In this document: positions 47,783 through 48,985 of the stretch, in pieces
Numbering within the stretch: position 1 is the first letter of the stretch
Layout: the number at the start of each line of letters is the position of its first letter
Assembly (NCBI GenBank): GCA_964035545.1
Contig: OZ037772.1
Span: 2,674,501 to 2,738,500 of the forward strand
Reading direction: 5' to 3'
Source of the DNA: Bugula neritina
Lineage: Eukaryota > Bryozoa > Gymnolaemata > Cheilostomatida > Bugulidae
Length of the DNA stretch: 64,000 bases
Notes under the pieces: model-generated
The model's input: only the letters and a program-made list of their open reading frames with translations
Database searches by the model: none
What the model was told of the DNA's origin: nothing
Translations under genes and position numbers: made by a program

Positions 47783-47885
47783 GAGTCACTTGAGCTCTCT
47801 GGCTTGAGTTTACACACCTTTTAAATATGCTTTAGTAGAAACATAAGTTTCTACTATTGCGAAGGTGTGGGCCATGGTACTCTGT

Positions 47886-47932
47886 TCTGTGCTGATGAGG
47901 GGACAAACCCCGAAACAGCTGCTGTCCACAGA
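47886..47932 (+). ncRNA. Type I hammerhead ribozyme 1
   Basis: Stem I TCTGTG (47886-47891) pairs with CACAGA (47927-47932). The core CTGATGA (47892-47898) precedes stem II GGGG/CCCC with loop ACAAA. GAA (47912-47914) follows, then stem III ACAG/CTGT with a 3-nt CTG loop, then the GTC cleavage triplet; predicted cut after 47926. All invariant nucleotides are present. The short stem III is the kind that usually works as a dimer. Confidence 0.92.
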
Positions 47933-48157
47933 TTGAGGTATTATGCTCTCACTTAATGCTCAGCAATGACATTCAGTGATTGAGCTCTCTCACCATGGTC
48001 ACAAACTCAAGCTGCTAGCATTTTGCAAGGCTCGTGACTCTTAGGTGACCCCTAGAGTCACTTGAGCTCTCTGGCTTGAGTTTACACACCTTTTAAATAT
48101 GCTTTAGTAGAAACATAAGTTTCTACTATTGCGAAGGTGTGGGCCATGGTACTCTGT

Positions 48158-48204
48158 TCTGTGCTGATGAGGGGACAAACCCCGAAACAGCTGCTGTCCA
48201 CAGA
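48158..48204 (+). ncRNA. Type I hammerhead ribozyme 2
   Basis: Identical to ribozyme 1; CTGATGA at 48164-48170, predicted cleavage after 48198, exactly 272 nt beyond the first site. Confidence 0.92.
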
Positions 48205-48210
48205 TTGAGG

Positions 48211-48372
48211 TATATATATATATATATATATATATATATATATATATATATATATATATACATATATATATATATATATATATATATATATATATATATA
48301 TATATATATATATATATATATATATATATATATATATATATACATATATGTATACATATATATATATATATA
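48211..48372. repeat. (TA)n microsatellite between retrozyme elements
   Basis: TA repeat ending CATATATGTATACATATA just before the next element, the same junction as before element 1. The whole (TA)n plus element block is therefore a 590-bp tandem duplication. Confidence 0.95.
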
Positions 48373-48475
48373 GAGTCACTTGAGCTCTCTGGCTTGAGTT
48401 TACACACCTTTTAAATATGCTTTAGTAGAAACATAAGTTTCTACTATTGCGAAGGTGTGGGCCATGGTACTCTGT

Positions 48476-48522
48476 TCTGTGCTGATGAGGGGACAAACCC
48501 CGAAACAGCTGCTGTCCACAGA
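48476..48522 (+). ncRNA. Type I hammerhead ribozyme 3
   Basis: Same core, stems and GTC triplet as ribozyme 1; predicted cleavage after 48516. Confidence 0.92.
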
Positions 48523-48747
48523 TTGAGGTATTATGCTCTCACTTAATGCTCAGCAATGACATTCAGTGATTGAGCTCTCTCACCATGGTCACAAACTCAA
48601 GCTGCTAGCATTTTGCAAGGCTCGTGACTCTTAGGTGACCCCTAGAGTCACTTGAGCTCTCTGGCTTGAGTTTACACACCTTTTAAATATGCTTTAGTAG
48701 AAACATAAGTTTCTACTATTGCGAAGGTGTGGGCCATGGTACTCTGT

Positions 48748-48794
48748 TCTGTGCTGATGAGGGGACAAACCCCGAAACAGCTGCTGTCCACAGA
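48748..48794 (+). ncRNA. Type I hammerhead ribozyme 4
   Basis: Same core, stems and GTC triplet; predicted cleavage after 48788, again 272 nt beyond ribozyme 3. Confidence 0.92.
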
Positions 48795-48985
48795 TTGAGG
48801 TATATATATATATATATATATATATATTACATCTTAACATTTTATCTGATGATTGTGTACATTCTATGCACATGAAACTAGTAGTAAAAAAGTGTTTTAA
48901 ATCAAATTTTATCGTTCTTTACTTTTATTTATTTACTCTGCTCTGCACTGCATTGAGCTCTCTTTAGTGGTAAACTATACACCAT

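Follow-up and report, generated by a model that had tools for sequence, protein, structure and literature searches.

Animal retrozymes, their circular RNAs, and a suspected mobilization by Penelope-like elements (PLEs) have been published (PMC7229834, PMC7761336). The non-LTR retrozymes reported from Acropora, Mytilus, and Ambystoma (Cervera & de la Pena 2020, PMC7229834) carry type I hammerheads in monomers of 170-400 nt, form tandem dimers to multimers, have a GC content below 50% and no known coding sequence, are present in many copies, and co-occur with PLEs. The family that we describe here from the bryozoan Bugula neritina is alike in all of these respects. Elements of this kind are further marked by the lack of LTR, PBS, and PPT, by target-site duplications that exceed 4 bp where they occur, and by self-cleavage with circular plus linear RNA in tissue. 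The Bugula family also shares with the plant LTR retrozymes a hammerhead, a presumed circular RNA intermediate, and a non-autonomous nature. The plant elements are reported to have type III hammerheads, ~350-bp LTRs, PBS, and PPT; their target duplications measure 4 bp, and Gypsy is their likely partner (PMC7761336, PMC7229834). In contrast to the plant type, with its type III hammerhead within LTRs, the Bugula elements have a type I hammerhead and no LTR.

A preference of PLEs for simple A+T-rich targets has been mentioned (PMC3846280), and in vitro a lizard PLE protein cleaves A+T-rich DNA and begins its cDNA at an internal site (PMC11167929). This PLE, Poseidon of Anolis (Frangieh 2024), resembles the Bugula retrozyme, as we read it, in having a type I hammerhead near the cDNA start, an internal start of reverse transcription, and a preference for A+T-rich targets. 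The Poseidon start, however, is reported in a stem-loop that lies 111-118 nt into the ORF; the hammerhead cut is 26 nt into it, and the start has no homology to the target (PMC11167929). The presumed start in the retrozyme matches (TA)n and is found 13-15 nt beyond the site of cleavage. Unlike Poseidon, the retrozyme shows no ORF of the PLE kind. The words retrozyme, circular, and microsatellite do not occur in the main text of PMC11167929. Among the titles and abstract openings covered by our literature search, which excluded Cervera & de la Pena 2014 and Lunse 2017, none reports that retrozymes land in TA microsatellites, and the combination of a circle with an internal start on TA-microsatellite DNA was not found in the same search. 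The Bugula family is almost certainly an animal (metazoan) non-LTR retrozyme, so that the kind of element is already known; the new part is its integration signature. Unlike the elements as described in PMC7229834, its copies nearly all stop at the same 3′ position on TA microsatellites, are truncated to different extents at the 5′ end, and show a pile-up of 5′ ends at one lap.

The window, that is, the whole 64,000-nt stretch of DNA that was analyzed, holds two adjoining retrozyme pieces at 47,781-48,803, with the following features (positions in the window):

47381-47782, no strand: (TA)n microsatellite upstream of the retrozyme (period 2, 201 copies), the presumed landing tract
47781-48213, plus strand: retrozyme insertion of the B subfamily, ~1.6 laps of the 272-nt monomer by alignment to the monomer
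47892-47926, plus strand: hammerhead core 1 (CTGATGA..GAAA..GTC), predicted cleavage after 47926
47927-48198, plus strand: one complete 272-nt monomer, the predicted circular RNA
47939-47941, plus strand: TAT at monomer positions 13-15, just 3′ of stem I, where most fetched copies meet (TA)n
48164-48198, plus strand: hammerhead core 2, predicted cleavage after 48198
48211-48372, no strand: (TA)n separating the two T-U-T pieces
48371-48803, plus strand: second T-U-T piece, identical to the first, with the same 5′ end and flank
48482-48516, plus strand: hammerhead core 3, from the pattern scan
48754-48788, plus strand: hammerhead core 4, from the pattern scan

The four identical cores announced by the first-pass annotation are all found at these sites, with a fifth on the minus strand at 53763-53797. 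A loose core pattern occurs five times in the window against 0.08 expected (SD 0.27; 0 of 100 shuffles reach five), and a 161-nt block is present in four copies, 100% identical, at spacings of 272, 318, and 272 nt. The 272-nt monomer was likewise borne out; counted from the predicted cleavage site it begins CACAGATTGAG, and the proposed circle at 47927-48198 spans exactly one monomer.

The reading of the locus as two retrozymes with an LTR-like T-U-T organization is not supported as to the LTR-like structure, and the two retrozymes are better taken as one duplicated insertion. T is the part of the monomer that is present twice and U the part present once; without an LTR, T is merely the doubled part of a lap. 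The insertion at 47781-48213 is truncated at the 5′ end at monomer position ~127-129 and ends on (TA)n at position 15, the TAT of its terminal unit lying at 48211-48213. It makes 1.6 laps of a 272-nt circle from a truncated 5′ end; T and U do not correspond to an LTR and a body. An LTR-like organization was rejected on the widely varying lengths of the fetched copies (0.23 to 5.09 laps, many below one lap; monomers of 271 or 272 nt), together with their nearly fixed 3′ end. Two independent insertions of the T-U-T pieces were rejected too, since both have a common 5′ end and a common irregular TA-tract flank (ACATATATGTATACAT..), with a 300-nt block that is 97% identical. We thus read them as one insertion, of which the second piece is probably a ~590-bp tandem duplication.

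All three stems of the hammerhead can form. Stem I pairs CUGUG with CACAG, followed by an internal loop, and is capped by CUC/GAG; stem II pairs GGGG with CCCC (4 bp); stem III is short, with ACAG and CUGU forming 4 bp around a 3-nt loop. The topology is type I (open stem I) and the catalytic core is intact, activity being a prediction from sequence and pairing. The core pattern and the stem pairing support the earlier identification as a retrozyme with a type I hammerhead. Folding of a single motif disfavors the hammerhead (-14.5 vs. -18.7 kcal/mol), and the minimum-energy fold of the 272-nt circle is without it. For the T-U-T RNA, the fold of lowest energy is exactly a double hammerhead, in which stems I and III pair between the two copies, both stems II are formed, and CUGAUGA, GAA, and the cleavage-site C are unpaired in both cores. 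The first-pass proposal that such hammerheads act as dimers finds weak support in this fold, with a 1.4 kcal/mol lead (-171.4 vs. -170.0 for folds without those long-range pairs) and a recurrence in 11 of 17 neighboring core pairs of the fetched arrays.

The covariance-model search, a missing hit in which the first-pass annotation had said would refute it, returned zero matches of any Rfam family at the gathering score in the whole window, and the 28 matches at E ≤ 10 in the 1-kb retrozyme stretch include no hammerhead. On 96 bases, RF03152 (RAGATH-1-hammerhead) aligns core and stems correctly, with 15.2 bits against a cutoff of 56.3 (E = 1.6), and RF00008 reaches 14.9 bits against 48.5 (E = 0.66) in a different register. 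A search of the Bugula genome with RF00163 found none, and neither did it in the 14 controls of that search. In our judgement, the miss reflects a poor fit of the models, not absence of the motif.

Some differences between the two subfamilies, A and B, keep pairs in the predicted RNA fold: the pair of positions 26 and 50 changes from C-G to U-A and that of positions 103 and 142 from G-U to U-A, and on facing sides of a hairpin near 184-198 one G and one C are gained or lost. Double changes keep a pair in 63 cases and break one in 3, while slid controls keep 1-27 and break 0-26. These changes reflect few A/B subfamily events.

The family is large. A 35-nt core pattern with at most two mismatches is found at 530 places in the 216-Mb genome and its reversed control at none, and the 272-nt query has at least 80 matches. 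The window's T-U-T belongs to subfamily B (272 nt), and its minus-strand copy to subfamily A (271 nt); the GC content of the monomer sequences is 0.435 and 0.452. Units within an array are alike: they differ in 23 of 514 comparisons at diagnostic sites, against 7-14% between arrays of the same subfamily, and in 35 of 7372 at other sites, against 1.4-2.1% between arrays. Such likeness is what repeated copying of one circle would give, and gene conversion could produce it too. Several arrays (L001, L024, L026, L028, L031, L088, and L095) differ at diagnostic sites inside, so that copying from one circle would need later mutation as well. Among side results from the same assembly, several COX1 matches lie on contigs C295, C6, C17, C196, C65, and C4; one, of animal type, sits on a contig of 15,248 bp that is likely the mitochondrion, a stretch of C6 scores similarly, and the remainder differ in TGA use and may be nuclear copies or come from cobionts.

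The ends of copies were read in overlapping sets. Flanks were taken for 75 of the 530 places (37 on C1, 38 on C2), giving 72 insertions (76 before identical flanks were removed), including the window's three, whose first entry spans both T-U-T pieces. A second set of 86 insertions came from 115 segments of L001-L100 and the window, excluding contig-edge, <60-nt, duplicate, and nested segments, and it counts the T-U-T pieces as two although they are probably one event. Because L001-L030 were chosen by similarity to the window's copy, a filtered set keeps the 62 insertions labeled L031-L100 or window, those also fetched by similarity being left out.

The 3′ end is nearly fixed. It lies at monomer position 15 in 62 of 72 insertions and at positions 9-15 in 70, and the terminal sequence at position 15, CACAGATTGAG[AG]TAT, as a rule sits directly on (TA)n. 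In the filtered set, 58 of 62 copies end at positions 9-18; the exceptions are L080, which ends at 5, L085 and L100, which end at 191 in another TA-matching spot (..TATA|TATA), and L090, an alignment overrun placed at position 15 in the 72-insertion set. Genome-wide, 326 such TA junctions are found with at most one mismatch, and none in the reversed control. The first 20 nt of flank are at least 90% A+T downstream in 57 of 62 insertions and upstream in 43 of 62, against a window background of 5.1%; an A+T-rich flank is thus commoner on the 3′ side, as target priming there predicts. By eye, no target-site duplications were seen in the flanks, where TA tracts on both sides would mask them.

The 5′ ends are scattered, yet pile up at positions 9-13, that is, at one lap (13 of 62 vs. 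1.1 expected, P = 1e-10; 14 of 72 in the larger set). One-lap TA junctions number 48 genome-wide, against 12 at a control site of equal or greater microhomology. No 5′ end of the filtered set (0/62) falls at 268-272 or 1-5, no 3′ end (0/72) falls at position 272, and all 72 core-found insertions pass through the cleavage junction; L100, a core-less piece of positions 6-191, stops short of it. These counts argue against cut linear monomers as the template and point to RNA that was mostly uncut or re-ligated. Microhomology between the 5′ end and a TA run averages 1.7 nt, against 0.72 for random truncation (0 of 100,000 simulations), in the 40 of 86 insertions with an upstream TA run of at least 10; 26 of 62 5′ flanks are without a strict TA run of at least 6.

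A second register is seen at the 3′ junction. Terminal GATATAT replaces GAGATAT in 15 of 44 A-family termini, while this GATA register is found at none of 16 internal A sites and none of 35 B termini; genome-wide, 19 such junctions occur with no mismatch. A two-base slip of a TA primer costs one mismatch on an A template and a further G-T on B. The restriction of GATA to A termini points to a TA-repeat DNA primer on the RNA rather than a copied tail.

The way in which most copies examined end on (TA)n suggests that a PLE enzyme copied a circular RNA directly at breaks in the DNA. Our main reading, to which we give a probability of roughly 0.7 from the sequence evidence, is that of a non-LTR retrozyme moved in trans by PLEs, by target-primed copying of its circular RNA at TA microsatellites. 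Weighing against it are the hammerhead-free folds of the single motif and of the circle, the Rfam scores below cutoff, the diagnostic differences inside arrays, the 5′ flanks with no TA run, and the Poseidon start site, which lacks the match to cut DNA proposed for Bugula. The most serious alternative, in our view unlikely, is that an uncut linear transcript of an older copy reads into (TA)n, and that its (AU)n tail anneals to nicked TA DNA in the manner of a LINE or SINE. A linear template accounts for the 3′ (TA)n, for truncated 5′ ends, and for TA on either side of a copy; many transcripts would escape cleavage if their hammerheads are weak or dimeric; and the lizard PLE is reported to insert unprocessed RNA in vitro, hammerhead mutants still being inserted (PMC11167929). 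It leaves the one-lap pile-up (13/62; 48 vs. 12 genome-wide) unexplained, however, unless transcripts start there, and the GATA register at termini only (15/44 vs. 0/16 internal) also stands against it. Furthermore, the 200-nt flanks of the 86 insertions, with matches above 90% A+T excluded, yield no clear case of carried 5′ unique sequence. By reading, 34 matching flank pairs represent PLE ends, further pieces of retrozyme, or segments of a single locus; two further pairs (L028/L084 upstream and L015/L098 downstream) are unclassified.

The involvement of PLEs is suggested by their own 3′ ends. A text pattern finds a type I hammerhead motif in 15 of 15 PLE 3′ ends that reach the terminus (L101-L115); a 16th fetched region, L116, falls short of the terminus and has no motif. 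Fourteen of the 15 stop directly on a TA run of at least 18 nt, 52-138 nt past the hammerhead GAAA, and the other, L102, has only TATATT and then other sequence ahead of the tract. Rfam at E ≤ 1 detected no hammerhead in the six PLE ends searched. Of the 86 retrozymes, 18 have a PLE end within 250 bp, against none of 142 control pieces (P = 5e-6). Among the 20 near-flank matches, the upstream one in the window is the match of a library sequence to itself, and a single PLE end accounts for the two insertions of L057.

The presumed PLE partner has a telomerase-like reverse transcriptase (RT), and its structure comparison extends mainly over residues 17-444, i.e., the RT part. The PLE alignment shows IYQATV..ETYIGLT..FKTR..NH and cysteine motifs, which may represent a C-terminal GIY-YIG endonuclease. 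Pfam and PDB sequence searches with pieces of the PLE ORF returned no RT or endonuclease family. TTGAGC[AT]CTCT, a motif defined after inspection of the sequences, occurs twice per retrozyme monomer, and the looser [TA]TGAG[CT][AT]CT[CT]T or TAGAGCACTCT occurs in 7 of 15 PLE ends. Against shuffles, words common to retrozyme and PLE are at best weakly above chance (P = 0.36 for A and 0.027 for B by longest match; 0.017 and 0.01 by sum).

Single loci show retrozymes and PLEs side by side. At L016 (C1, PLE match 18155185-18155502, minus strand), a 714-aa PLE frame lies ~1 kb from a ~2-lap retrozyme on the opposite strand, a PLE 3′ end and a TA tract lying between them. L028 groups several retrozyme pieces, some short and some long, that lie in both orientations. 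There, PLE sense sequence is fused directly to a retrozyme 5′ end with no TA between, which may be a template-switch chimera of the two or a short resection beside an older PLE end. At L045, a retrozyme 5′ end joins an inverted PLE 3′ end, and further PLE 3′ ends lie one in sense further upstream and one downstream.

The window itself contains the following further pieces:

48823-48986, plus strand: 5′-truncated PLE 3′ end, matching the 3′ end of the L103 PLE at 97.6%
48846-48886, plus strand: minimal type I hammerhead motif of this PLE end (CTGATGA..GAAACTAGTAGTA), by eye; same motif in L103
48986-49065, no strand: (TA)40 closing the PLE fragment
52149-52511, minus strand: PLE reverse transcriptase fragment, with 75 matches in the genome as a query
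53749-53906, minus strand: retrozyme insertion of the A subfamily, ~0.57 lap, 3′ end on (TA)n at 53609-53751
53763-53797, minus strand: hammerhead core 5, stem II with one G-U
53926-54120, minus strand: PLE 3′ end on the strand of the A-type retrozyme, located upstream and connected to it by a short TA tract

The PLE end at 48823-48986 is on the same strand as the T-U-T and has a TA tract in common with it. The one at 53926-54120 contains CTGAAGA..GAAATATC at 54015-54046 (by eye), and related sequence is found beside L023 and in L114. The TA-microsatellite landing, the family of some hundreds of copies, and these adjoining PLE 3′ ends are all absent from the first-pass annotation.

Other observations concern the rest of the window. 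At 52146-52896, the RT part (minus strand) and the C-terminal part (plus strand) of a PLE fragment lie back to back, the latter stopping on a short TA run (..CTGCCTA|TATATA); the fragment looks like an inverted, twin-primed insertion with an internal cDNA start. A 32-bp direct repeat, 94% identical and 1368 bp apart (52163-52194 and 53531-53562), coincides with the borders of the PLE fragment or lies close to them and is a possible target-site duplication. A fold-back element at 54401-54554 is an inverted repeat with 71-nt arms, 96% complementary, and 12 nt between them. Two minisatellite arrays 40 kb apart, at 1950-2614 (27.7 copies) and 42836-43380 (22.7 copies), have a 24-bp unit in common and lie inside open frames. 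A 269-aa open frame at 62787-63596 has a borderline Retrotrans_gag match (22.1 bits vs. a cutoff of 24.1).

PLEs and retrozymes could also come to have a landing site in common because (TA)n tracts attract insertions generally in this genome. In a second alternative, the retrozyme is moved by another reverse transcriptase, such as that of a LINE, with PLEs merely using the same (TA)n hot spots. This improbable alternative gains from the fact that PLE action on retrozyme RNA is a proposal and that the landing sites compared were those of retrozymes and PLEs. Against it, PLEs and retrozyme alike have a type I hammerhead motif, a downstream end at TA-matching spots, and (TA)n landing, and PLE ends co-locate with retrozymes within 250 bp. 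Finally, a plain satellite whose hammerhead is a relic, and which was dispersed as TA tracts underwent unequal exchange, is scarcely credible: the ~590-bp duplication in the window does resemble a product of recombination and within-array similarity could be homogenization, but hundreds of dispersed cores and single, partial, and multi-lap copies with nearly fixed 3′ and variable 5′ ends are not exchange-like, and some changes in the predicted RNA fold (26-50, 103-142) keep pairs.

Under target-primed copying of a circle by PLEs, the junctions would be explained as follows. Read-through transcripts of multi-unit copies would be cleaved by their own hammerheads, perhaps in dimeric form, to give 272-nt monomers, which would be ligated into circles as in published animal retrozymes. 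A PLE protein would nick TA-microsatellite DNA, and the exposed ..ATATA-3′ would pair with UAU just 3′ of stem I; this primer would start cDNA internally on the circle, needing no RNA 3′ end. The enzyme would then pass the intact cleavage junction and go round the circle, often halting after one lap on meeting its own start, and otherwise continuing for up to the five laps seen, to leave tandem units. The lap lengths are read from the copies, and self-collision is their presumed cause. Lastly, the cDNA 3′ end, which is the element's 5′ end, would often be joined to the tract's far side through microhomology of 1-4 nt, an excess of which is observed.

As to what the enzyme recognizes, we put at about even odds, on the same sequence evidence, that the PLE protein recognizes the hammerhead region of the foreign circle, starts at UAU, and runs until it collides with itself. 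If so, the hammerhead would serve twice, making the circle and marking the start for the PLE enzyme, and TA microsatellites would be landing strips common to the enzyme donor and its parasite. Hundreds of junctions in one genome point to a start site and its likely primer, to the place of landing, to a signature of laps, and to a candidate for the enzyme. They also yield a prediction for other animals: retrozyme 3′ ends, mapped from the cleavage site, should be comparable with the 3′ ends of the resident PLEs.
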